Source of the DNA: Candidatus Berkelbacteria bacterium RIFOXYA2_FULL_43_10
GTDB taxonomy: Bacteria > Patescibacteriota > UBA1384 > XYA2-FULL-43-10
Direction: 5' to 3'
Assembly (NCBI GenBank): GCA_001776195.1
Contig: MEZY01000002.1
Coordinates: 1 to 33,597 of the forward strand
DNA length: 33,597 bases
Shown here piece by piece: positions 8,539-27,660 of this stretch; position 1 is the first letter of the stretch; each line of letters starts with the position of its first letter. The notes below the pieces were generated by a model. The model made no database searches and had not been told where the DNA came from. It saw only the letters and a list, made by a program, of their open reading frames with translations. A program made the position numbers and the translations under genes.

Positions 8539-9348
8539 TCAATGTTGAATTTTCTTAACAGTTTTGCGAATAATTTCTAATACTTTATCCATTGTATTTT
8601 CTTCACCGCTTAGATGATCCCATAACTCCGATCCAATTAAGATCTCGTTCATGTCAAAAAACTTCTTAAATTCTATGAGATAATTAAAGAATCTTTCTTT
8701 ATTATATTTAGTAGGGCTATCTGATGTGGGATCAAATGGAAACCCGATCATAAATTTAATCTCTTTTTTTCGGTGGAGTAGCATTAGGGCTGCTTTGCCA
8801 TAAAGTATCTTTTGTTTTTCACCCCTACCTTCTCCGGAGTTTGGTCTTACTGATTTTAGCTCGATTGCGTCAATTTCATATTTTGATTCGAGATAGTTAT
8901 CCACAGTGAAAGCTAAAGAATCGATTTCCTTATTGTTAGCTATGCAACTTAATAATGCGTTATTTTCTCTCTTCAAATCTGGCGAAACATTTCCTGACTT
9001 TAGATCTCTAATAATTTGTTCAATCCTGGCTGCTTGGGTTTGTCCCACTTTCAAAACGAAATGCCCAGTAAAACTTCTCTTGTATCCCCCAGATAGAATA
9101 TGTGCAAAGTTTTCAAATCCCGAACCCAAGGAAGTATTCAGCCCATGTAGCCAACTCGCCAACGCTACAAGTTGCGGAATTCCCAATTTTAATGGTTTCA
9201 ATCTATCTTTAAAACAACTTAAAAACTCAGTGTGAAACGGCGCATTTCTTATCATGGTTGTTTCGTCAGGAAATGATTCTGGGCGGCTGGCAATGATCTT
9301 CTTCGCCTCTTCCTCTATCCGAATGATTTTGTCTTGATCGAGACTCAT
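8539..9348 (-). CDS. Type II restriction endonuclease, TdeIII/MjaII-like
   Basis: A 269-aa protein following the methyltransferase by 3 nt, the usual arrangement of a type II R-M pair. It resembles TdeIII/MjaII-type endonucleases: an N-terminal helical part with RNAPFHTEFLSCFKDRL, the central SLGSGFENFAHILS, and a PD-(D/E)XK-type core in YEIDAIELKSVRPNSGEG, where D150 or D160 with E163 and K165 are the likely metal-binding and catalytic residues. TdeIII and MjaII are described as cutting GGNCC; whether this enzyme does is inference. Length fits the family and the frame is intact. It would act on unmodified foreign DNA in the cytoplasm. Confidence 0.8.
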   Translation of the reverse strand: MSLDQDKIIRIEEEAKKIIASRPESFPDETTMIRNAPFHTEFLSCFKDRLKPLKLGIPQLVALASWLHGLNTSLGSGFENFAHILSGGYKRSFTGHFVLKVGQTQAARIEQIIRDLKSGNVSPDLKRENNALLSCIANNKEIDSLAFTVDNYLESKYEIDAIELKSVRPNSGEGRGEKQKILYGKAALMLLHRKKEIKFMIGFPFDPTSDSPTKYNKERFFNYLIEFKKFFDMNEILIGSELWDHLSGEENTMDKVLEIIRKTVKKIQH

Positions 9349-9351
9349 TGT

Positions 9352-10935
9352 TTAACCTATATTTTTAATATGAAATATAATTTCCGAATAGGGTGACTTG
9401 TCCCTCTCTGTCCTATTTAAAACCGGTCTCTTGAATTGATTGATGATTTTCATTCCTGACCGTCTGGCAATTTCCGGGTACATGTTGTATTTGTCATTAG
9501 CCACCAAAAAAACATCATAATCACTTGATAAATACTTGCGACAATTATTCAATACATCGGATATGCCCTCGATATACGAATTTCTTGCTTCTGTGCCCTT
9601 GCCTTTGAATAAAGGGCCAATTTCCAATTGGTCTTGTCTTTTAAAGCCGAATAGGTCGTAAGCGTAAGCGTGTTGCTCGTGATAATCAATTTGTCCGACA
9701 TAGGGAGGCGAGCTGAATATGCCTTTAATTTTTTGCTTTTTGAACAGTTGATAAAGTTTTTTATTTCTTCTTGATATTTCTTCCGCTATATCTACAGTTC
9801 TTGAGTCAGATGGAATTATCGCACAATGTGAATTTTTCTTTAACTCATCATACGTCTTTATTCTATCCAATGTGTCGTCGGCATATCTGTTAAACCATGA
9901 CTTAATTGAAAAAATCGGTTTGCATATTTTTTTATGTTTCCAGCAATAATATGTGGTTGTTTGCGGTTCCTTGAGTGTGGCCAGATCAGAGTGAGTCGTG
10001 GCCCTACATGATCTAATTGTCCTGCTTAGTATTACAGCAAGTATTTTTTTTGTCTTAATGTTATTAATTTTTTTTATTTGATTAAATACAAAACCGATTT
10101 CATTCTTAACATTTTTAATGTACCACTTGTTTAAAAATCCATCAGACGATTGAGTATTCAATTCAATTTCGTATTTTTTCGCTAGATCGAGGTATCTCTT
10201 CAACAATTCTTTTTCTTTTTCAGCAGAATAATTTTTCTCATTAATTTCCTTGGTGGCAAATTTATATTTATATTCTGGACTTGGAAAATTATCATTATTG
10301 AATATCGTTAACTCACGAAGTAGAGTATTTTCAAACGGCATAATGTTTTTATCAGTTTCATAATTGTTAATAAGCAATTTCATCTTATTAATTTGACGCT
10401 CAACGTCATTAAAATCATAGTCTAAGAGTTTTGTTTCTGCGATCATACAGTTGAATCGAGACACATCTACCCCCACGGAATGGATACCTAATTCATTGGA
10501 TTGTACCAGTGTTGTCCCGGAACCCATAAATGGATCCAGTAAGATATCGCCTTGTTTAAAGTATATATTTTTCTTAAATTTATCGACGTGACCATCAAGA
10601 AAATATTCTACCAACTGAGGAATGAACTTACCCTTGTAGGGATGAAGACGATGCACATGTTTTGTGGTCTCATATTCTTTAAACTGTTCAAAGGACAGCG
10701 CCCAGTTCAAGTCATGACCGAGTTTATCTTTCCAATATTTTTCTCGTGAACGCACATTAGTGCTGTTGTAGTAATCCATTAAGTCTATTTTGACAACTTG
10801 TGTACTGCCATTATTCCCAAATTTTCTAACTCGTCCATATTGTACAAGATAAGAAATATTTGAGGGTGTAACATTTCGGCTAAAAAATGTTCTTACAAAA
10901 TCGCATGCTTGATTAATTGATAGTAGATCTTCCAT
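9352..10935 (-). CDS. Site-specific DNA methyltransferase of a type II R-M system
   Basis: A 527-aa S-adenosylmethionine-dependent DNA methyltransferase. Residues 1-60 form an HTH/excisionase-like domain (SINQACDFVRTFF, then NISYLVQYGRVRKFG). HRLHPYKGKF (residues 95-104) is the block that often precedes motif I in beta-class enzymes; motif I is DPFMGSGTTLVQSNELG (134-150) and the catalytic motif IV is SSPPY (408-412). SPPY usually marks N4-cytosine methylation, though N6-adenine cannot be excluded. The long region between motifs I and IV probably contains the target-recognition part. Expression before the endonuclease would protect host DNA. The ATG at 10935 is preceded by an extended -10 only 6 nt away. 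Confidence 0.9.
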   Translation of the reverse strand: MEDLLSINQACDFVRTFFSRNVTPSNISYLVQYGRVRKFGNNGSTQVVKIDLMDYYNSTNVRSREKYWKDKLGHDLNWALSFEQFKEYETTKHVHRLHPYKGKFIPQLVEYFLDGHVDKFKKNIYFKQGDILLDPFMGSGTTLVQSNELGIHSVGVDVSRFNCMIAETKLLDYDFNDVERQINKMKLLINNYETDKNIMPFENTLLRELTIFNNDNFPSPEYKYKFATKEINEKNYSAEKEKELLKRYLDLAKKYEIELNTQSSDGFLNKWYIKNVKNEIGFVFNQIKKINNIKTKKILAVILSRTIRSCRATTHSDLATLKEPQTTTYYCWKHKKICKPIFSIKSWFNRYADDTLDRIKTYDELKKNSHCAIIPSDSRTVDIAEEISRRNKKLYQLFKKQKIKGIFSSPPYVGQIDYHEQHAYAYDLFGFKRQDQLEIGPLFKGKGTEARNSYIEGISDVLNNCRKYLSSDYDVFLVANDKYNMYPEIARRSGMKIINQFKRPVLNRTERDKSPYSEIIFHIKNIG

Positions 10936-11368: not shown

Positions 11369-12964
11369 TTGGACTCGTATTTTTCAAGTCAAAAAAATGC
11401 CACTTCGGATAATTTGATAAATTTGCCGCTTATTTTGTTGATTTTGGATGGATGGGGAATCGCTCCATCTTGGGGTGGAAATGCTATCACGCTCGCGAAA
11501 ACGCCAAACTTTGATAGGCTCTGGAGAAGTTGTCCTTCGTCGACGATTAGAGCTTCGGATGGAGCGGTGGGGTTGCCGGAAGATGCGCCGGGAAACTCCG
11601 AAGCCGGTCATCTGAATATCGGAGCAGGAAGAGTGGTACACCAAGATTTTCCGATGATAAATCGCGAGATTGAGAGCGGAAAATTTTATGAAAACTCGGC
11701 GATGAAACAGGTGCTTCTCCATGCGCAAAAAAATCAGAGCGCCGTAAACCTTGTTGGATTGTTGTCGAAAACCGGTACTCACAGCCACATCGATCATCTC
11801 TTTGCCTTACTTAACTATTTTAAAAAATCGAATTTCAACAATGTTTTTATTCATTTGTTTTCTGATGGTAGAGATTCCGATCCTATGAGTGGCATAGAGT
11901 ATATATCTGAAGTGGAAGAAGAGATTAAAAAAATTGGTGTAGGCAGGGTTGCTTCAGTAATGGGCAGATACTATGGTATGGATAGAGACAACCGTTGGGG
12001 CAGGACGGCAAGGGCGTATAATGCGATGATTTTGGGGGAAGCAGAGAAGTGCGAAAAAGCGATAGACGTATTCAGCCAATCTTATCGCAGGGGGATTACC
12101 GATGAGTTTATCGAACCAAGAGTTATTGTCGACAAGGAAAATCAGATCTCAACAATCAAAAACGACGACTCAATCATCTTTTTTAACTTTAGGGCCGATA
12201 GAATCAGGCAGTTAGTAAAAGCATTGGTCGGACAGAATATCAAAGGTTTCGAAGATAAAAAGAACTTATCTGATTTATTTGTTGCCACTTTTGCGACTTA
12301 CGAGGAGATGGGAAGCGAAAATATTGCACGAATTTTTGAACCGGATAAAGTTCGGTCTCCCCTCGCAAAAATTATATCTGAAAATAATTTGAGACAATAC
12401 CATATCGCTGAAACAGAAAAATATCCGCATGTGACATATTTTATAAACGGAGGGCGAACAAAGCCATTTCCCGGAGAAGATTGGGAGATGGTTCCATCGC
12501 CGAAAGTGAGGACTTACGATTTGTCCCCAAAGATGAGCGCAAAAGGAATCACCGATAGGTTGATATTAAAGATAAACAGAAGGTCATACCATGTCTATGT
12601 CGTTAATTTTGCTAACGCAGATATGGTTGGCCACACAGGAAATCTTGAGTCCGTGATTCAGGCGGTTTCCTTCGTCGACCTTTGTTTGGGGAGAATATGC
12701 GATGCGGTGATAAAGAACAGTGCTACTCTGATGATATGCGCTGATCATGGAAATGCCGAGCAGATGGTTAACCCGGCCACTTCCGATGCGGATACTGAGC
12801 ACACCACGAATCCAGTACCATTTATGATTATGAAAAATGCAGAGGAAAAGAAGCTTATTCTCAACCCAAGTGGAAAACTTGCCGATATCGCTCCGACGAT
12901 GCTGGGGCTTATAGGAGCGGAAAAGCCAATAGAAATGGATGGTGTATGTTTGATCAAAGAGTAG
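11369..12964 (+). CDS. gpmI: 2,3-bisphosphoglycerate-independent phosphoglycerate mutase
   Basis: A 531-aa cytosolic iPGM, converting 3-phosphoglycerate and 2-phosphoglycerate through a phosphoserine intermediate with two Mn2+ ions. All key blocks are intact: LDGWG (D27), the nucleophile in PGNSEAGH (S77), TGTHSHIDHL, SDGRDSDP, GRYYGMDRDNRW, FFNFRADRIRQL, DMVGHTGN, CADHGNAEQM and EHTTNPVPF. The start is TTG at 11369, supported by a strong AGGAGG and no nearby in-frame ATG; the N-terminus is about 20 residues longer than usual. It is the first gene of an operon with a degenerate paralogue, pduL and ackA, linking lower glycolysis with acetate-type ATP formation. Confidence 0.97.
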   Translation: MDSYFSSQKNATSDNLINLPLILLILDGWGIAPSWGGNAITLAKTPNFDRLWRSCPSSTIRASDGAVGLPEDAPGNSEAGHLNIGAGRVVHQDFPMINREIESGKFYENSAMKQVLLHAQKNQSAVNLVGLLSKTGTHSHIDHLFALLNYFKKSNFNNVFIHLFSDGRDSDPMSGIEYISEVEEEIKKIGVGRVASVMGRYYGMDRDNRWGRTARAYNAMILGEAEKCEKAIDVFSQSYRRGITDEFIEPRVIVDKENQISTIKNDDSIIFFNFRADRIRQLVKALVGQNIKGFEDKKNLSDLFVATFATYEEMGSENIARIFEPDKVRSPLAKIISENNLRQYHIAETEKYPHVTYFINGGRTKPFPGEDWEMVPSPKVRTYDLSPKMSAKGITDRLILKINRRSYHVYVVNFANADMVGHTGNLESVIQAVSFVDLCLGRICDAVIKNSATLMICADHGNAEQMVNPATSDADTEHTTNPVPFMIMKNAEEKKLILNPSGKLADIAPTMLGLIGAEKPIEMDGVCLIKE

Positions 12965-12967
12965 AAG

Positions 12968-14467
12968 ATGATTAAAAAATTATCATTGATCATATTAAAC
13001 GGTTGGGGGCTTTCTTCGAGCTGGGGAGGAAATGCAATAGCGGCGGCCAACCCGGGCAACTTTTTGAAGTTCTGGGGACAGGGCTTGTGCATGATAATTA
13101 AACCAGCTCAAAAAAAAGCTGGCTTGTATGCGGATGAAGACGGAATCACCCTGTCGGAAATATATGTGGGCAGGGAGGTAAAAAGGATAAAGGAAATTGT
13201 CGATGATGTTGTGGGCAGAAGAGAGCTTGGCGAATGTCTAGAGCTTAAAAAATCTATAGAAAATTGTAAGACAAATACTTCGTCGCTTAATCTTGTTACA
13301 ACCATTGCGGAAAACGATGAATATTCCGATCCGGACAACATAAAGATCCTACTCGAAATATTGAAAGTCGAGCGGATAAGAAATATCAACATCCATCTGA
13401 TTTTAGAGGGCGAGACAGGAGCGGTATCTAGGAAAGTGGAAACGCTTGCAAATAGTATAAACGATTTTGAGGAGGCGCAGATATCTTCGATTCAGGGGAA
13501 TCATTATTTGAGTGAGATCGGAAGTAAGAACTTTCAGAGATCGTACTCGTCCATAGTATTGGGAACCGGCGAGAAGGCGCTTGACGCGATATCAGTTCTT
13601 TCCAAAAACAAAAACTTGCCAAAACTTGATGATTTGGAGCCTCACATCATATGCAGCGGGAATCAGGCGATCGGAAAAATATTTGATTTCGATTCCGTTC
13701 TCTCTCTGGATTATAAAAGGAGTAACTTAAATAATTTTATTAGATACTTAAGCGCTTTCGAGGTCGGAAGCAAATCTTACAAACCGATGGGGATTAAAAT
13801 ATCAACTTTAACCGATTATTATTACGGTGCCGGCCCGAAAGATATTGGTATAATTATCGATAGAGATCAAATAAATAATAGCGTTTTATCATTAGCGGAA
13901 GATGCAGGGTTGAAGAACGTCGAGATTTTTGGAAGCAAAAATTCTTGGAAACATTATTACTTAAGTGGATTTAAGAAGAAAAATCAAAGTAGCGGGAGCT
14001 GTATCGTGGTGGCAAACGATGGATCTGAAAAAACATACGACGCAAAAAGGTGGTTGAATACATACCGTGATACAGTAGGCGATAATATCAATATAATAAC
14101 AAGCTATCTGTCGGCTAGCGACTTCTCGGCAAGGACAGGAAGCATCAAGGAGGATATTGAATCAATAAAAGTTGTCGATAAATTATTGGGAGAAATGGTT
14201 GAGATCAACTTTCAAAATAATTATCAGACAATAATTTTAGCTGATGAAAGCGGGTTAGAGAGCGCGGGCATTAATAGCAATCCTCTGCCTTTTATCTATC
14301 TAAAAGATAGTGAGAGTTTAAATAATGATGATTCATTAATCCAGCGAAAGATCACGATAGAGGGTCTCTTGAGAGCAAAAAGCTCGACATATGATATTGC
14401 GCCGACAATTTGCAAAATAATGGATATTACGAAGCCTGATGAGATGACCGGGGAGTCGTTAATTTAA
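12968..14467 (+). CDS. Degenerate iPGM paralogue (probable pseudoenzyme)
   Basis: A 499-aa protein colinear with the preceding iPGM but without its catalytic groups. Shared blocks are NGWGLSSSWGGNAI (versus DGWGIAPSWGGNAI) near the start, then SSLNLVTTIAEN, GEKALDAISVLS and DIAPTICKIMDITKPDEMTGESL at the end. The first metal aspartate is asparagine (N11); PGNSEAGH has become GITLSEIYVGRE; the SHIDH and SDGRDSDP blocks are lost; MDRDNRW is gone; DMVGHTGN is DFSARTGS; ADHGNAEQM is ADESGLESAG. The frame is intact over full length with normal codon use, so it seems to be kept under selection rather than decaying. It begins 3 nt after gpmI stops. A regulatory or structural partner of the active enzyme is plausible but unproven. 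Confidence 0.85.
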   Translation: MIKKLSLIILNGWGLSSSWGGNAIAAANPGNFLKFWGQGLCMIIKPAQKKAGLYADEDGITLSEIYVGREVKRIKEIVDDVVGRRELGECLELKKSIENCKTNTSSLNLVTTIAENDEYSDPDNIKILLEILKVERIRNINIHLILEGETGAVSRKVETLANSINDFEEAQISSIQGNHYLSEIGSKNFQRSYSSIVLGTGEKALDAISVLSKNKNLPKLDDLEPHIICSGNQAIGKIFDFDSVLSLDYKRSNLNNFIRYLSAFEVGSKSYKPMGIKISTLTDYYYGAGPKDIGIIIDRDQINNSVLSLAEDAGLKNVEIFGSKNSWKHYYLSGFKKKNQSSGSCIVVANDGSEKTYDAKRWLNTYRDTVGDNINIITSYLSASDFSARTGSIKEDIESIKVVDKLLGEMVEINFQNNYQTIILADESGLESAGINSNPLPFIYLKDSESLNNDDSLIQRKITIEGLLRAKSSTYDIAPTICKIMDITKPDEMTGESLI

Positions 14468-14482
14468 TAATGCGAGGATAAA

Positions 14483-15040
14483 ATGAAGACAACGGTGGAA
14501 ATTTCAGCTAGACACATCCATTTGACTCGGGAGGACTTTAAAACTCTTTTTGGGTGTGAGGAGCCGACGATCAGAAATAAATTGAGTTTGGATTATGAGT
14601 ATGCCGCAAACGAAACGGTAGAGGTGGTAGGTCCGGAGGGGAGATTGCTTGACGTTAGAGTTATCGGTCCGCTACGAGAGAAATCGCAGTTCGAATTAAG
14701 TATGAGTCACGCAAGGGTTTTGGGGATAGATCCGCCGATCAAAGTCTCCGGTGAAAGTGGCGGAGCAAAAATAAAAGTTGTAGGTCCTGTTGGTGAAATA
14801 TTGAAAAACATTGCAATTGTACCCAAGAGACATTGGCACGTATCAACAAATTTGGCTAAGAAGTTAAGGGTAAAAACTGGCCAAAATGTGGCGGTACAAA
14901 TTAAAAGCAAAAGATCAACAATATATTACGATATTGTTACAAGAGTCGATGATGATTTTGAAAACCATGTCCATCTGGATACGGATGAAGGAAATGCGGC
15001 TGGTATCGAAAAGAACACAAGCGCAGAGCTAATTATTTGA
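14483..15040 (+). CDS. pduL: PduL-type phosphate acyltransferase (phosphotransacetylase)
   Basis: A 185-aa PduL-family enzyme, exchanging CoA of an acyl-CoA for phosphate to give acyl-phosphate. It is unrelated to classical Pta and uses zinc-bound histidines. These are visible in SARHIHLT (H11, H13), KRHWHVS (H117, H119) and ENHVHLDTDEGNAAG (H162, H164); the two-barrel repeat is marked by VEVVGPEGRLLDVRVIGP and IKVVGPVGEI. No encapsulation peptide precedes the core and no microcompartment shell gene is present, so this is the housekeeping form making acetyl-phosphate. GAGG 5 nt before ATG 14483 is a good ribosome site. The downstream neighbour is acetate kinase, 8 nt away. Confidence 0.95.
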   Translation: MKTTVEISARHIHLTREDFKTLFGCEEPTIRNKLSLDYEYAANETVEVVGPEGRLLDVRVIGPLREKSQFELSMSHARVLGIDPPIKVSGESGGAKIKVVGPVGEILKNIAIVPKRHWHVSTNLAKKLRVKTGQNVAVQIKSKRSTIYYDIVTRVDDDFENHVHLDTDEGNAAGIEKNTSAELII

Positions 15041-15048
15041 AAGGTTCT

Positions 15049-16125
15049 ATGATATTGATATGGAACGCAGGTTCATCATCGTTAAAAGCCAAGCTCTACG
15101 ATGTGAAAGCAAAGAGGTTAGTTTTGATAAAATCTGCAAGTGTTGCAAGAATCGGTGAAAGCGAGACTAAAAACCACGCTAACGCATCTTTACAAATAAT
15201 TAACGAGGAAAAGCTCGAGGGATACGATATTAAAACTGTAGCATACCGTGTAGTACATTCCGGAGGCGAGCTTAAGGATGGAGCGGAAGCGAGCGATAAA
15301 ATCATCAAGCAGCTAAAAGTGGTTTCCTCCCTCGCCCCCCTACACAATCCGCCGGCGATCGAAAATATTGAAGTTTCTAAAAAGGTATTCTTAAAGCAGC
15401 GACATAAACTATTTTTCGATACATCTTTTTTCAAAGATTTACCAGCAGAAGCCATAACTTATCCCCTACCGCTAGAGATTGCAGATAGAGAGAAAATAAA
15501 GAAATTTGGGTTTCATGGGATATCCCACGCATATGCTTTGGAAGAATCGGGAGCTAAAAGTCGAGACCGGGTGATATCGATTCATTTGGGAGCCGGCTGC
15601 TCCGTATGTGCTATTGTCAACAAAAAGCCGCTAGATACTTCTATGGGATTAACCCCTTCCGGCGGGTTGATTATGCAATCTAGAACTGGAGATATCGATC
15701 CGGGAATAGTTTTTTATCTGATACGAAAGTTGGGGGCGGAAAAAACGGAAAAAATAATCAATAATGAATCCGGTTTAGCCGGGCTCACCGGGACATCGGG
15801 GAATATGTACGATGTACTATATCTCGCCGGGCAAAAGATTGAAGATTCAAATTATTTGCCATCATTGAGTCTCAAGAAGGATGAGACGAGTACGGCCGAT
15901 GCATTATTGGCTTTGAAAATGTATACAAATTCGATTAAAAGATATATAGGCGGATATGCAACGTTAATGCAAGGAGTTGACATGGTAATTTTCACAGGAA
16001 AGATTGGGGCCGGTTCCAGCGTTATAAGAGATATGGTGATGGAAGGATTGGAATTTTTAAAAATCAAAAGGGTCGTAAAGGTTGAGCCGGATGAAGAGAA
16101 AGCGATAGCCAGATTCTTGATTTAA
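15049..16125 (+). CDS. ackA: Acetate kinase (acyl kinase), variant active site
   Basis: A 358-aa ASKHA-family kinase that would make ATP from acetyl-phosphate. Conserved blocks: NAGSSSLK (N6, S9, S11), RVVHSGG, LAPLHNPP, FDTSFFKDLP, FGFHGISH, DTSMGLTPSGG, SRTGDIDPG and IGGYATLMQGVD. It is shorter than the usual near-400 residues. Two positions differ from the textbook enzyme: HLGNGAS reads HLGAGCS (N to A at 182), and the C-terminal GGIGENS reads GKIGAGS (E to A at 321, the metal-associated glutamate). Such changes may be lineage-typical; activity is inferred from the pduL partner. ATG 15049 with AAAGG upstream is preferred to a TTG at 15037 overlapping the pduL stop. Confidence 0.9.
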   Translation: MILIWNAGSSSLKAKLYDVKAKRLVLIKSASVARIGESETKNHANASLQIINEEKLEGYDIKTVAYRVVHSGGELKDGAEASDKIIKQLKVVSSLAPLHNPPAIENIEVSKKVFLKQRHKLFFDTSFFKDLPAEAITYPLPLEIADREKIKKFGFHGISHAYALEESGAKSRDRVISIHLGAGCSVCAIVNKKPLDTSMGLTPSGGLIMQSRTGDIDPGIVFYLIRKLGAEKTEKIINNESGLAGLTGTSGNMYDVLYLAGQKIEDSNYLPSLSLKKDETSTADALLALKMYTNSIKRYIGGYATLMQGVDMVIFTGKIGAGSSVIRDMVMEGLEFLKIKRVVKVEPDEEKAIARFLI

Positions 16126-16337: not shown

Positions 16338-17378
16338 ATGCAAAAAAATGTCCAAAAATTATACTCCGGAAACGAAGTGATCGTTTTGGCGGCCATAGAA
16401 GCCGGAGCCGAGGCTATGTTTGGGTATCCGATAACACCTTCCTCGGAGATTTTGCAGGGTTGGATAGAGTCCGCGAGCAGTAACAGAAATCTACAATTTT
16501 TACAAACTGAAGATGAAACATCTGCCGGTTTTGCGACCATAGGGTCAATACTGGGCGGGAAGAAAGCCTTTACGGCTACCGCCGGTCCGGGTCATGTGCT
16601 AATGCAAGACCCGCTTTCAATGGCGGAGAATTTGAGAATTCCTTTTGTCGCGATTGTTATGCAACGTGGGGGTCCGTCGACCGGTACCGTCAATTATTCA
16701 CAGCAAGAAGTAAATTTAGCCGCGTTCGGCGGCAACGGCGATGGACTTAGAGTCGTATACTCGGCTTCATCAATTGATGAATTATACTCATTGACAATTA
16801 AAACTTTTAATACAGCTTGGAGATACAAATTCCCATCAATTCTTCTTGGTGACGGATACTTAGCGAAAATGAAAACTAAATTTTCGCCGTCAAAATCCAT
16901 TCGTCCGATAAAATCAACTGAAATGCTTGAAGGAAAGAAAAACCCCACATATCTTCGTAACTGTTTTAGTTCGGAGGAGGAATTCGGAGCCGAGCTTGAT
17001 AAAAATATTGCTGATTGGAATCGCTTAAGATCACAAATCGCCGAATCGGAAGTTTACAAAATAAATGACGCATCTGAAATTATAATCGCCCACGGGCTGG
17101 TAGCACAAGCGTCGAAAGAAGCAGTTGAGATTATGCGAAATAATAGAAGAAAAATAGGATTGTTTAAGCCGATAACATTGAACCCGATTGATTCACGAAC
17201 TCTTAATAAAGTATCAAGCGGAAAGAAAAAGATTTACATTGTTGAGTCGTCGAGGAACCAGCTTTCACATATAATAAAATACGAACTTGATAAATTTTGT
17301 GGTGAAATCGTTGAGATATCAAAACCGGCACAAGGCTTCACGGCAAAAGAGATAGTAAACAAAATAGAGAAAGATTGA
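16338..17378 (+). CDS. porA: 2-oxoacid:ferredoxin oxidoreductase, alpha subunit
   Basis: A 346-aa alpha subunit of a thiamine-diphosphate 2-oxoacid:ferredoxin oxidoreductase, which oxidatively decarboxylates a 2-oxoacid to acyl-CoA and reduces ferredoxin. Pyrimidine-binding domain I shows GNEVIVLAAIEAGAEAMFGYPITPSSEI, then the cofactor glutamate in QTEDETSAGFATIGSILGG and TATAGPGHVLMQDPLSMAE. Domain II follows with EIIIAHGLVAQASKEAVEIM and IVESSRNQLSHIIKYEL. VMQRGGPSTGTVNYSQQEV is typical of the KorA/VorA branch. Beta and gamma-ferredoxin genes follow. The substrate (pyruvate, 2-oxoglutarate or branched chain) is not fixed by sequence; pduL-ackA nearby favours pyruvate or another energy-yielding 2-oxoacid. 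Confidence 0.93.
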   Translation: MQKNVQKLYSGNEVIVLAAIEAGAEAMFGYPITPSSEILQGWIESASSNRNLQFLQTEDETSAGFATIGSILGGKKAFTATAGPGHVLMQDPLSMAENLRIPFVAIVMQRGGPSTGTVNYSQQEVNLAAFGGNGDGLRVVYSASSIDELYSLTIKTFNTAWRYKFPSILLGDGYLAKMKTKFSPSKSIRPIKSTEMLEGKKNPTYLRNCFSSEEEFGAELDKNIADWNRLRSQIAESEVYKINDASEIIIAHGLVAQASKEAVEIMRNNRRKIGLFKPITLNPIDSRTLNKVSSGKKKIYIVESSRNQLSHIIKYELDKFCGEIVEISKPAQGFTAKEIVNKIEKD

Positions 17379-17416
17379 ACCCCACCGTCATATATGACAC
17401 AAGTCACAAGTCCAAC

Positions 17417-17613
17417 GGTTACGATGCCCGTTATTTCATAAATCATCAATAATCAATCATCAATAATCAGTTAAGCTACAATATTCAATATTCAAATGCC
17501 AATATATACAAATGATGTCTTATCTGGTTATTTGCAAATTGGTTATTAACTGGTGATTGTATCTTGGTTATTGAGTATTGATAACACGGGCTTCGTTACC
17601 GATAAACGATTAA
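17417..17613. repeat. Repeat cluster between porA and porB
   Basis: GGTTACGATGCCCGTTAT (17417-17434) is the exact reverse complement of 16232-16249. A related direct copy, ATAACACGGGCTTCGTTACC, starts at 17581 and continues GATAAACGATTAAC to 17613, just ahead of the porB start. Between them is an exact 14-bp tandem duplication (AATCATCAATAATC at 17441-17454 and 17455-17468) and AT-rich sequence. No gene is seen in 17379-17619. Confidence 0.6.
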
Positions 17614-17619
17614 CGAGAT

Positions 17620-18366
17620 ATGTTGCATATGATTGAGACAATGCCAAAATGTTGGAATCAGAAAACAAAACCGCACTTTTTCTGTCCTGGGTGTGGCCAT
17701 GCTATTATTCTCAAGCAATTGGGGTTTGTTATTGATGATTTGAAGTTGGAACAAGAGGTTAAATTCTTTATAGACATCGGATGTTCTCTTTTAGCATGGA
17801 ATTTCTATAATTTTGATACTGTCCAGACGCATCACGGGAGGACCACACCGACAGCTGTTGGATATAAAATGGCGAAACCAAAAAAAGTAGTAATTGGTTA
17901 CATGGGAGACGGCGGCGGATACGCCATAGGACTGCAATCTGTACTTCATGCTGCTTTCCGAAACGATCCGGTAACTATCATTTTGGTTAATAATGAAAAT
18001 TATGCCATGACCGGTGGTCAAATGGCACCGACGACGATGCCGAATGAAATTACGACCACAACTCCAACGGGGAAAGAAGTTAAATTCGGTCCTGGGATGC
18101 ATGGGCCGGAGCTAATCAGAAATATTGCATCCGACAAGGCCTACATCGCAAGAACATCAATGTCCGCACCGGAAGCGGTTAAAATAGCGATCAAGAAGGC
18201 AATTAAAACTCAAATTGAGAATAATGCATTTTCATTTTTAGAGATTTTATCGATCTGCCCCACAAACTGGAAAACTGACGCAGAAGGATCGTTTGAGAGA
18301 TTAAAGATGGCGGAGAGTTATTACCATATTGGCGAAATACCGCCACAGAAATCATCACAGAAATGA
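17620..18366 (+). CDS. porB: 2-oxoacid:ferredoxin oxidoreductase, beta subunit
   Basis: A 248-aa TPP-binding beta subunit, partner of the preceding alpha subunit. HFFCPGCGHAII near the N-terminus and FIDIGCSLLAWN carry cluster-type cysteines; the TPP/Mg2+ motif is GYMGDGGGYAIGLQS followed by ILVNNENYAMTGGQMAPTT. LSICPTNWKTDAEGSFERLK is the usual C-terminal block. Three in-frame ATGs compete (17620, 17629, 17641); family alignment would allow MPKCWNQKTKPHFF at 17641. No good ribosome site is seen for any. The last residues (PPQKSSQK) are encoded by DNA resembling the 3960-4075 repeat, so the tail may be repeat-derived. It is separated from porA by 241 bp, so it may have its own promoter. Confidence 0.93.
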   Translation: MLHMIETMPKCWNQKTKPHFFCPGCGHAIILKQLGFVIDDLKLEQEVKFFIDIGCSLLAWNFYNFDTVQTHHGRTTPTAVGYKMAKPKKVVIGYMGDGGGYAIGLQSVLHAAFRNDPVTIILVNNENYAMTGGQMAPTTMPNEITTTTPTGKEVKFGPGMHGPELIRNIASDKAYIARTSMSAPEAVKIAIKKAIKTQIENNAFSFLEILSICPTNWKTDAEGSFERLKMAESYYHIGEIPPQKSSQK

Positions 18367-18393
18367 TTTAGTAATGAAAATGGATATATAAAA

Positions 18394-19212
18394 ATGATAC
18401 ATGAAACTACAATAATATTATTTGCGGGTGAGGGCGGACAAGGCGTACAGACCATTGCGGAGGTCACAGCCGCGCTTGCGATAGGCAAAGGATATAACGC
18501 AACATATATCCCCTATTTTGGTGTAGAGCAACGAGGAGCATCCTCTATCGCTTATGTAATTATCTCCAAAGGGACTATTTATTATCCGAGATTTGACGAT
18601 GCCGACATAATCGTCGTAATGCGTGAAAGGGCGCTTAAGGACATCAAAAGATTTATTACCCCGAATACAGATGTAATTTTCGATAGCTCCACAATAGAGG
18701 CAAAAGATATCCACAAAATCGCGACCAAAACGATAGGATTCCCCGGGAGCAAATACGCGCTAACAAAATTCGGAGCAAAATCATACAACTTGCTGGTTCT
18801 GGGAGTGATAGGGAACTATTTGGGATTCGATAAAACTGAACTCTGGGAAAATGTTTTTGAAAAGCTCAAGAGTAAATTCAAAAGCAAAGAGATCGAAGAG
18901 AAAAACAAGCTGGCGCTGGAGTTTGGGGCGAAGATAGTACTTGAGAAGGGAGAATATTCAAAGGCTGAATTCAAAGCAGATCTTGGCGATAAGCTTTATA
19001 GAAACAAAGAAAGGGAAGGGATTATCAAACCAAGTTTATGCAAGGGTTGTCTAATATGCGTCGAAAAATGCCCGGTTGGAGCACTTTCGAAAGGAAGTGA
19101 GGTCGGATTTTTCGGGGCAAATATACCCGATCTTAATATAGAAAAATGCATCACTTGCGGAATATGCAAGCGCTTTTGTCCCGACGGAGCGGTAGCCGTT
19201 GAAAAGAGATAA
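18394..19212 (+). CDS. porG: 2-oxoacid:ferredoxin oxidoreductase, fused gamma and ferredoxin (delta) subunit
   Basis: A 272-aa fusion. Residues 1-180 are the gamma domain: LFAGEGGQGVQTIAEVTA (nucleotide/CoA loop), PYFGVEQRGASSIAYV and VVMRERALKDIKRF. A linker leads to a two-[4Fe-4S] ferredoxin domain with CKGCLICVEKCPVGAL (about 216-231) and CITCGICKRFCPDGA (about 252-266), complete C-x2-C-x2-C-x3-C sets. The clusters carry electrons from the TPP site to external ferredoxin. It follows porB by 27 nt, so the pair is co-transcribed. Its TAA abuts the stop of the convergent YdjM-like gene with no gap. Fusion of gamma and delta is common and not itself odd. Confidence 0.93.
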   Translation: MIHETTIILFAGEGGQGVQTIAEVTAALAIGKGYNATYIPYFGVEQRGASSIAYVIISKGTIYYPRFDDADIIVVMRERALKDIKRFITPNTDVIFDSSTIEAKDIHKIATKTIGFPGSKYALTKFGAKSYNLLVLGVIGNYLGFDKTELWENVFEKLKSKFKSKEIEEKNKLALEFGAKIVLEKGEYSKAEFKADLGDKLYRNKEREGIIKPSLCKGCLICVEKCPVGALSKGSEVGFFGANIPDLNIEKCITCGICKRFCPDGAVAVEKR

Positions 19213-24674: not shown

Positions 24675-24720
24675 TATTTGATACGGATAGATAAAAATGG
24701 TAATCTATAACTATATAATT

Positions 24721-27660
24721 ATGGAAAAATACAATTTCAAAAAGCTAGAAGACAAATGGCAAAAGAAGTGGGAACGATCAAGCTACGGGAAAGCCGTTGA
24801 TTTTGACAATAAGCCAAAACACTACAATTTAGTAGAATTTCCATACCCTTCCGGTGCCGGGCTCCATGTCGGCCACTGTATGGGCTATGGGGCCTCCGAC
24901 GCTTTCTCACGGATGAAGCGGATGCAGGGGTTTAATGTTATGTATCCGATGGGATGGGACGCTTTTGGGTTGCCAACCGAGAATTATGCCATAAAAACAG
25001 GCCGCAAGCCGAAAGATGTGACGGCGGAAAACATCAAAGTGTTCAAAAAGCAGATGAAGCGCCTCGCCTACTCCTTCGACTGGGATAGGGAAATTGACAC
25101 CACAGATCCAGAATACTATAAATGGACGCAGTGGATATTTTTGCAATTTTACAAGCACGCCGTTGTTGAAGGTAAGCTGATCGAGGTTGAAGATGATGAT
25201 CAAATAACCCCGCGACTCGCCTATCAAGCGGAGATGCCGATAAACTGGTGCCCATCATGCAAAATTGGCCTCGCAAATGAAGAGGTTATTGCAGGGAAAT
25301 GCGAACGATGCGGTGCAGGAACAGAACGGAAGATGCAGAAACAGTGGATGCTTAGGATCACCGAATATGCAGATAGATTGATAGACGATCTTAAAACGGT
25401 CGATTACCTTCCCCAGATAGCCACGCAACAGATAAACTGGATCGGGCGCTCGGAAGGAGCTGAAATAGATTTCAGAATACAGAATACAGAATACAGTTTA
25501 AAAGTTTTCACAACGAGGGCGGATACGCTTTATGGCGCAACATTTATGGTAGTAGCACCGGAACATATCATTATTCCGAATCTTGAATCACGAATTAGGA
25601 ATTATGAAGAGGTAAAAGAATATATTAATAACGCGAAAAAGAAGTCTGATCTGGAGAGAACGGATCTTGCAAAGGAGAAGACGGGCGTTGAAATTAAAGG
25701 CGTTAAGGCGATAAATCCCATTAATGGCGCTGAAATACCGATATTTATCGCTGACTATATCCTTGCATCATATGGCACCGGAGCGATAATGGCAGTACCC
25801 GCCCACGACGAACGAGATTACGAATTCGCAAAGAAATACGATATTCCGATCATGGAAGTGATAATCCCAACCGTCACAGATAAGCACGATCCGCCGAAAG
25901 AAGGTGTTGAGACAATATTCAGGAATGCAATTCAAGCGATTGTGATCAACCGAAAAAGCAATAAAGTCCTTATGCTTAAGTGGAAAAAGTTCCCATGGAC
26001 TACATTCGTTACTGGAGGAATTGATGGGAAAGAGGATAAAATTACAGCAGCAAAAAGAGAAGTTCTCGAGGAGACAGGCTATAAAGGCATAAATTTTATC
26101 AAATACTTGGGTGGACCCGTTGAATCTAATTTTTACGCGAATCATAAAGGAGTGAATAGAAAAGCTCATTTCTGGGGGATGGTATTCGAAATTGAAAACA
26201 ATGATAAAGATGAAATTTCTGATGAAGAGAAAGAGATACATGACGTAGAGTGGATGACTTGGGAAGAAATTGAAAAAGATAAGAATATTAAATGCGCGGA
26301 ATACGAAATATGGCTGGAGAGGCTTAAGAATGATAATCAATTATTTACGGATTGCGGTGTTCTTATTAATTCAGGTGAATTCGATGGAATGAGTTCAAAA
26401 GAGGCCGAAAATGCAATTATCAAAAAGTTGGAGAAGGACAATGCTGGCAAATCGACAGTAAATTACAAACTTCGGGATTGGATATTTTCACGTCAGCACT
26501 ATTGGGGTGAACCGATACCGATAATTCATTGTGAAAAATGTGGGACGTTGCCTATTGATGAGAAAGAATTGCCCGTGATACTGCCTGATGTTGAAGATTA
26601 TCAACCGACCAATACGGGTGAATCGCCACTATCCAATATCGATAGCTGGGTAAATATAAAGTGCCCTAAATGTGGCGAGGACGCCAAACGAGAGACCGAC
26701 ACTATGCCGAACTGGGCGGGATCGAGCTGGTACTATGCCGCGTATATCACACGCGGAAATTCGAAATCCGAATATCGAAATCCGAAAGAAGATGAAAATT
26801 TATTCAGTAAATATAAAAAAGAACTTAAGTATTGGCTTCCGGTTGATTTGTACAACGGCGGGATGGAGCATACTACCCTACACCTTCTTTATTCTCGGTT
26901 CTGGCATAAATTCTTATACGATCTCGGTTGTTTTACGACGCCAGAGCCATATAAAAAACGAATTGCGCACGGGATTATTTTGGGCGCGGACAATAGAAAA
27001 ATGAGCAAATCTTTCGGCAATGTAATTAATCCCGACGAGATTATTGATAAATACGGCGCGGACACTCTGCGAGCCTACATAATGTTTATCGGCCCATACG
27101 ACCAAGAGTCGGCTTGGAATATGAATGGGGTTTCGGGGGTATATCGTTTTATCGCAAAAGTATGGGCGAATATCGGCAAAGCAAAAGAAAATGTTGATGA
27201 CGAGCTGGGACGAGCTCTGCATAAGACCATTAAGGGGGTAAGTGATGACATCGAATGCTATTCGATGAATACTTACATCGCGAAACTAATGGAGTTTAAT
27301 AATTTAATGACTCAAAAGGATGCAATAAATTATGAAACACTCAAGATTTATGCAAAACTTTTGTCACCCGCCATACCACATCTTTCAGAAGAATTATGGG
27401 AAATTGTCGGAGAGAAAGGATCAATTTTTGAATCAAACTGGCCGGATTTCGATCAGAAATTGATAGAAGAGGAAGATCTTGTGATAGTAATTCAAATAAA
27501 CGGTAAAGTACGGGATAGATTAACGGTTAAAAGTGATATTTCAAACGCAGAACTTAAGACACTCGCGTTAAACTCCGATACCATACAACACTGGCTTTGT
27601 GGCTCTAAACCAAAAAAGATTATCGTAGTTCCCAAAAAGCTTGTGAGTATCGTAATTTGA
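24721..27660 (+). CDS. leuS: Leucyl-tRNA synthetase with an inserted Nudix hydrolase domain
   Basis: A 979-aa class I synthetase charging tRNA-Leu. HVGH (49-52) and KMSKS (760-764) are intact; a zinc ribbon is at NWCPSCKIGLANEEV...CERCG. The CP1 editing domain has TTRADTLYGATF and the aspartate block AVPAHDERDYEFAKKY, then, instead of a short linker, about 155 residues (roughly 384-540) that form a Nudix domain with a perfect Gx5Ex7REUxEExGU box (residues 432-454, REVLEETGY), before LFTDCGVLINSGEFDGMSS resumes. Two other stretches (residues near 251-259 and 680-690) are encoded by repeat-like DNA. ATG 24721 fits the family N-terminus; ATG 24697 would add eight residues and has a weak GGATAG. 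It is divergent from the GC-rich gene. Confidence 0.97.
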   Translation: MEKYNFKKLEDKWQKKWERSSYGKAVDFDNKPKHYNLVEFPYPSGAGLHVGHCMGYGASDAFSRMKRMQGFNVMYPMGWDAFGLPTENYAIKTGRKPKDVTAENIKVFKKQMKRLAYSFDWDREIDTTDPEYYKWTQWIFLQFYKHAVVEGKLIEVEDDDQITPRLAYQAEMPINWCPSCKIGLANEEVIAGKCERCGAGTERKMQKQWMLRITEYADRLIDDLKTVDYLPQIATQQINWIGRSEGAEIDFRIQNTEYSLKVFTTRADTLYGATFMVVAPEHIIIPNLESRIRNYEEVKEYINNAKKKSDLERTDLAKEKTGVEIKGVKAINPINGAEIPIFIADYILASYGTGAIMAVPAHDERDYEFAKKYDIPIMEVIIPTVTDKHDPPKEGVETIFRNAIQAIVINRKSNKVLMLKWKKFPWTTFVTGGIDGKEDKITAAKREVLEETGYKGINFIKYLGGPVESNFYANHKGVNRKAHFWGMVFEIENNDKDEISDEEKEIHDVEWMTWEEIEKDKNIKCAEYEIWLERLKNDNQLFTDCGVLINSGEFDGMSSKEAENAIIKKLEKDNAGKSTVNYKLRDWIFSRQHYWGEPIPIIHCEKCGTLPIDEKELPVILPDVEDYQPTNTGESPLSNIDSWVNIKCPKCGEDAKRETDTMPNWAGSSWYYAAYITRGNSKSEYRNPKEDENLFSKYKKELKYWLPVDLYNGGMEHTTLHLLYSRFWHKFLYDLGCFTTPEPYKKRIAHGIILGADNRKMSKSFGNVINPDEIIDKYGADTLRAYIMFIGPYDQESAWNMNGVSGVYRFIAKVWANIGKAKENVDDELGRALHKTIKGVSDDIECYSMNTYIAKLMEFNNLMTQKDAINYETLKIYAKLLSPAIPHLSEELWEIVGEKGSIFESNWPDFDQKLIEEEDLVIVIQINGKVRDRLTVKSDISNAELKTLALNSDTIQHWLCGSKPKKIIVVPKKLVSIVI
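25473..25496 (+). repeat. 7-bp tandem repeat inside leuS
   Basis: CAGAATA occurs three times in a row followed by CAG. Three 7-bp units equal seven codons, so the frame is preserved; it encodes RIQNTEYS between DF and LKVFTTRADTL in the editing domain, where other LeuRS have a variable loop. Confidence 0.8.
26758..26789 (+). repeat. Dispersed repeat inside leuS
   Basis: Two 14-bp units (TCGAAATCCGAATA and TCGAAATCCGAAAG) encode SKSEYRNPK between YITRGN and the KYWLPVDLYNGG block. The stretch matches 27 of 32 bases with the reverse complement of the intergenic repeat at 22404-22435. Confidence 0.7.

Follow-up and report, generated by a model that had tools for sequence, protein, structure and literature searches.

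A probable pseudoenzyme of the iPGM family encoded directly behind gpmI in a Berkelbacteria genome

Background

The closest described cases of dead metabolic-enzyme paralogues come from trypanosomatids, in which prozymes derived from AdoMet decarboxylase (PMC5201418) and deoxyhypusine synthase (PMC3663545) have been shown to activate their partners by heteromer formation. The iPGMs that have been studied are monomers (PMC5382265), and a survey of bacterial PGMs found that iPGM paralogs are rare and that PGM paralogs occur mainly in larger genomes (PMC2964296). A CPR-wide study of metabolism covers the distribution of phosphoglycerate mutase, and at least part of its text mentions no tandem or dead copy (PMC7304191). 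A search of the literature found no iPGM pseudoenzyme and no iPGM tandem from Patescibacteria.

Here, we consider a reduced genome that devotes 1.5 kb to a dead iPGM beside a live one, a gene that annotation alone would name a mutase or leave nameless. It lies in the first 33,597 nucleotides of contig MEZY01000002.1 of Candidatus Berkelbacteria bacterium RIFOXYA2_FULL_43_10 (the window). This genome (0.96 Mb in 58 contigs, 92.5% complete) carries three iPGM genes: a canonical gene of type A (gpmI), the dead gene of type C adjacent to it, and a canonical gene of type B on another contig.

The locus and its reading frame

The genes that concern us are as follows.

11369..12964, + strand: gpmI, A-type canonical iPGM of 531 aa, the presumed partner (TIGR01307, 607 bits; 15/15 catalytic residues)
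12965..12967, + strand: gap of 3 nt separating the gpmI stop (TAG) from the paralogue ATG (read from the sequence)
12968..14467, + strand: C-type iPGM paralogue, catalytically dead, 499 aa (ATG, open frame)
14483..15040, + strand: pduL-type phosphotransacylase, the next gene after the paralogue (PTAC, 2.4e-53)
15037..16125, + strand: ackA, acetate kinase (family matches and conserved order)
16338..19212, + strand: porA-porB-porG, 2-oxoacid:ferredoxin oxidoreductase subunits, the end of the conserved block (family matches and conserved order)

A preliminary description of this DNA had reported an intact frame of 499 aa that is colinear with iPGM over its full length, and profile and structure matches bear this out. 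TIGR01307 aligns over its positions 1-504 at 101 bits, which does not reach the equivalog cut-off of 331; Pfam finds iPGM_N (4.8e-11) and Metalloenzyme (2.4e-6); and iPGMs in the PDB match residues 3-499 (E 2.5e-19). The protein has the domain layout of the family, a phosphatase with an inserted transferase domain in about 500 aa. The start 3 nt past the gpmI stop at 12964 and the position ahead of pduL and then ackA were also described correctly, and porA-porB-porG come next. The gpmI gene itself starts with TTG, preceded by a ribosome-binding-like AGGAGG, and the 3-nt spacing behind it would be compatible with translational coupling. A read-through fusion of gpmI and the paralogue was considered and rejected, since the two share a frame in only some genomes, at about chance level. 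A scan for promoters and terminators round the conserved block gave counts at chance level.

The frame has the look of a coding sequence. Its coding score per codon is 0.146, compared with 0.156 for gpmI, over 499 open codons. When neutral drift was simulated from gpmI to the identity of the paralogue (about 25%), about 25 stops accumulated, and none of 200 runs stayed open. Furthermore, an AlphaFold2 model built with 28 sequences has the two-domain iPGM fold (pLDDT 83.1, pTM 0.82), with low-confidence loops at 49-56, where the nucleophile has been lost, and at 332-342, round the K336 region. A Foldseek search with this model returned iPGMs as the top matches over the full length (E 3e-33, TM up to 0.75). 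A second dead copy, from genome G005, was modelled as well (pLDDT 80.6, pTM 0.79). We consider it likely that the window paralogue is translated and folded. Used as a query against the genome contigs, the dead protein detected no relatives; gpmI as a query turned up named relatives, which supplied outgroups and a name for the clade.

The order mreB, EPSP-synthase-like gene, ORF, sortase, A, C, pduL, ackA, porA, porB, porG recurs in G001, G003, G004, G006, and G008, the adjacency of the paralogue to pduL included; consequently, the window gene is the positional orthologue of near-intact C genes. The relative G004 is 'Candidatus Berkelbacteria bacterium' JAPLVG010000023 (identical DNA) and belongs to the same taxonomic order as the window genome, which places the window in that part of the Patescibacteria. 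Between the sortase and gpmI, the window holds a TdeIII-type restriction endonuclease beside an N6/N4 DNA methylase (8539-10935, - strand). Since the sortase-gpmI gap in G001 is only about 250 bp, this pair seems to have been inserted into the block. Further along, a leucyl-tRNA synthetase of 987 aa (24697-27660, + strand) carries, behind the match to the editing domain, a NUDIX insert (aa 411-528). The same insert is found in another member of the class (L085 1834-4692) and is missing from G040 (L082) and G036 (L079); the synthetase of G048 (L216 1533-4466) has an alpha/beta-hydrolase-like insert instead, at aa 243-340 in the editing-domain region.

Catalytic residues

Fifteen catalytic sites, in B. 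stearothermophilus numbering, were taken from the 1ejj alignment. One of them, R153, is taken to be among the arginines that contact the substrate, as in the 1ejj structure. The parts of the paralogue discussed below are located as follows.

12998..13000, + strand: codon of N11, at the site of metal ligand D12 (alignments)
13001..13075, + strand: retained non-catalytic N-terminal motif GWGLSSSWGGNAI..NP.NF..FW, residues 12-36 (conserved-column count)
13412..13417, + strand: E149-T150, replacing the substrate-binding pair R153-D154 (alignments)
14120..14134, + strand: D385 (metal ligand D403 kept) to R389 (metal ligand H407 lost) (alignments)
14243..14248, + strand: D426 (metal ligand D444 kept) and E427 (metal ligand H445 lost) (alignments)
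14279..14464, + strand: C-terminal segment, part of the phosphatase domain, with 10/13 conserved columns kept (conserved-column count)

Twelve to thirteen of the 15 residues have been lost. D12 has become N11, the S62 block is deleted, and H123, R153, D154, and R185 are replaced by Y119, E149, T150, and N178, respectively. R191 is lost, R261 is replaced by K and R264 by N, H407 and H445 have become R389 and E427, and H462 is deleted. The set that defines catalysis (Ser62, the metal ligands, and the substrate Arg, His, and Asp residues) is thus represented by two or three of 15: D403 (as D385), D444 (as D426), and, in some alignments only, K336. All of the motif losses that had been listed beforehand are real, except that the loss of ADHGNAEQ is partial, as the metal Asp is kept (ADESGLES). 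The paralogue is almost certainly not a mutase.

The losses are not spread evenly. The N-terminal segment of the window copy keeps 13/17 conserved columns, compared with 31/96 elsewhere (Fisher p 0.0009), and in the other dead copies described below, the same segment is retained with p 0.0001. Across the five dead copies together, 7/61 catalytic columns are kept versus 204/439 other equally conserved columns (p 3.5e-8); for the window copy alone, this preferential catalytic loss is not significant (p 0.19).

A third iPGM subfamily

For trees, iPGM ORFs were gathered from about 60 genomes, with nine iPGMs from outside Patescibacteria for rooting. The sequences fall into groups A, B, and C, of which C is a third subfamily of 18 rows with a clade support of 100 in quick trees and 97/93 in the careful tree. 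In the rooted tree, C is sister to A (support 91). The window paralogue lies inside the C clade and carries C-type signature letters (e.g., S16, N28, P29, and S323), on a very long branch of 4-6 changes per column versus about 0.5 for gpmI. With a contig-end fragment in G010 added to those in the tree, C genes are present in 19 genomes, and many other members of the class lack the gene altogether.

The preliminary description had asked whether the order of gpmI and paralogue is conserved, and it is: in 19/19 genomes, C directly follows an intact iPGM gene of the same strand. The preceding gene is A in 16 of these and B in three f9-family genomes, where A was not found; in G012, G018, G019, G031, and G044, three iPGM genes stand in tandem as B-A-C. 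The best explanation is that C goes back to an ancestral member of this patescibacterial class, in which canonical gpmI (A) was duplicated in tandem.

Graded loss and constraint

The C copies form a graded series. All 15 catalytic residues are present in G003 and G033, and the sole change in G001 is R191K. R153 is the only loss in G004 (L), G006 (M), G018 (T), G019 (Q), G029 (E), G031 (T), and the G010 fragment (I), and it is accompanied by further losses in G037, G044, G015, and G011. Five copies are dead or nearly dead, namely those of the window genome, G002, G005, G012, and G008, the last with 371 aa. No genome carries both a dead copy and a live C. Outside C, Arg153 is near-invariant: the only losses are those of the G071/G090 pair and of a dead copy from G157.

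These cases also lie outside the class. The G157 gene (L209 2679-4181, - strand) encodes a dead iPGM of 501 aa with 2/15 residues, directly downstream of an intact iPGM, and represents a separate duplication in another patescibacterial family (phylum level); G245 belongs to that family too and has an intact second iPGM copy. In G071 and G090 (L089 4473-6260 and L208 4414-6099), the upstream iPGM of a tandem is without H123, R153, D154, and R185 and keeps the metal site and Ser62. G002, which is of the same taxonomic order as the window genome, has a further iPGM gene (L037 4227-5927) that retains the catalytic residues but is divided by one stop into pieces of 243 and 323 aa. This gene seems to be a real pseudogene, whereas the C copy of the same genome is dead with an open frame.

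A dN/dS analysis had been recommended for the paralogue. In the dead copies, the window gene included, synonymous sites are saturated, and the analysis was run on same-genus or close pairs without R153, where it revealed strong constraint. For G071/G090, omega is 0.17 for the paralogue and 0.13 for the enzyme, with identities of 83.5% and 82.4%. Between G004 and G006, identity is 77.3% for C, 75.0% for A, and 77.8% for B; between G018 and G031, it is 58.1% for C and 62.7% for A. Thus, copies without R153 are constrained like enzymes. The dead copies of G002 and G005 are only 25% identical, compared with 55% for A. A same-genus counterpart of the dead G005 copy was sought in G007, where only A and B genes were found.

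Proposed role and alternatives

Taken together, these results lead to a model in which the window gene is probably a genuine pseudoenzyme. It would represent the last stage reached by a tandem paralogue already impaired as a mutase, and it would act non-catalytically beside gpmI. The sequences show two steps. In the first, the C copies of most lineages lost Arg153 and retained the metal site and nucleophile. Since such copies are constrained as an active enzyme would be, C appears to have a role that is useful without normal mutase chemistry. In the second, the window lineage and four further genomes of the sample lost the whole catalytic apparatus and kept the frame (shortened in one genome), the slot behind an active iPGM, and, in the two copies modelled, the predicted fold. 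The suggestion of a retained non-catalytic paralogue is upheld by the open frame, the coding-like codons, the predicted fold, the preferential catalytic loss, and the tandem subfamily of 19 genomes.

How such a protein acts can be proposed with less assurance. It would be co-translated with gpmI, and its most likely role would be to stabilise or tune the active mutase as a prozyme-like partner subunit. The steady slot behind an active iPGM is so far the one observation that suggests this, and the monomeric state of known iPGMs (PMC5382265) counts against it; a partnership of the window paralogue with the adjacent iPGM is accordingly put forward as a possibility, somewhat short of an even one. 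A class-wide version is more tentative and rather doubtful: C may be a prozyme-like mutase subunit of ultra-small bacteria that lost first substrate binding and then, possibly repeatedly, all catalysis, and that serves to regulate or stabilise the active iPGM whose translation immediately precedes its own. The preliminary description had also raised a metabolite sensor that couples glycolysis with acetate formation. This receives no specific support, because C also occurs where no adjacent pduL-ackA was found (e.g., in G018, G019, G031, and G015) and because the dead pocket lacks most phosphoglycerate ligands.

It may instead be argued that the gene is decaying toward deletion, the C role having been lost in the window lineage and selection relaxed; the open frame would then be a remnant or be kept only for translational coupling between pduL and gpmI. 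The very long branch contrasts with the near-intact gene (R191K only) that G001, of the same family, has in the equivalent position; it fits such decay and means that constraint on the window sequence is weak. The shortened G008 copy (371 aa), the absence of C from some class members, and the low identity of the dead G002 and G005 copies (25% vs 55% for A) point the same way. However, decay does not readily account for the lack of stops at an identity where neutral drift predicts about 25, nor for the full length (487-510 aa) of the G157 copy and of all the dead C copies except that of G008. Catalytic residues have been lost preferentially and structural segments retained, and the window and G005 copies are predicted to fold well, which the coupling variant does not require. 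Decay is the main rival reading, though a rather unlikely one.

Another proposal concerns history only. The dead copies might descend from one ancient, separate paralogue that stands in for C, rather than from repeated deaths of C. The five dead rows do cluster (73/87, unstarred), and a tree that places G008 beside G004/G006 is weakly rejected (p-AU 0.037). On the other hand, the tree program flagged long-branch attraction, no genome has both kinds of gene, slot and block are identical, and a clade of the window copy with G001 is not rejected (p-AU 0.13). A separate paralogue seems quite unlikely; it would shift the timing of catalytic loss, not the identity of the protein, and so can coexist with the pseudoenzyme model. 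Finally, it is improbable that copies without R153 act on another phosphate ester, as phosphatases or transferases, and that the window copy has acquired a different active site: the former do keep, under purifying selection, the metal ligands, Ser62, and most of the remaining pocket, but R153 has been replaced variously (L, M, T, Q, E, I, V), which argues for loss rather than a switch in specificity, and the window copy has neither the nucleophile segment nor most metal ligands, with its pocket loops modelled at low confidence.

The relatives preserve the stages of catalytic death at one locus, from intact through loss of R153 and loss of several residues to loss of all, and these graded orthologues make the transition from enzyme to non-enzyme directly testable. 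C may also point to a place where glycolysis is controlled in Patescibacteria, a group known metabolically for the most part through annotation.

Comparison with known systems

The window paralogue resembles canonical iPGM (GpmI; TIGR01307; PDB 1ejj, 1o98, 4my4) in its two-domain fold and full-length colinearity, and it is encoded beside a canonical copy. It differs in having no nucleophile, few of the metal ligands, and few of the phosphoglycerate ligands, and it scores far below the equivalog cut-off. With the trypanosomatid prozymes, it shares the retention of a dead metabolic-enzyme paralogue together with the active one and, on a sequence basis, is a dead paralogue of a co-encoded active enzyme. 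However, the enzymes are different, iPGM is known as a monomer, and the case here is one of adjacency and retention, compared with heteromer activation in the prozymes. Like bacteria with multiple iPGMs (PMC2964296), the window genome has more than one; in contrast to them, it is a genome of 0.96 Mb with three, one of which is dead and stands in tandem.
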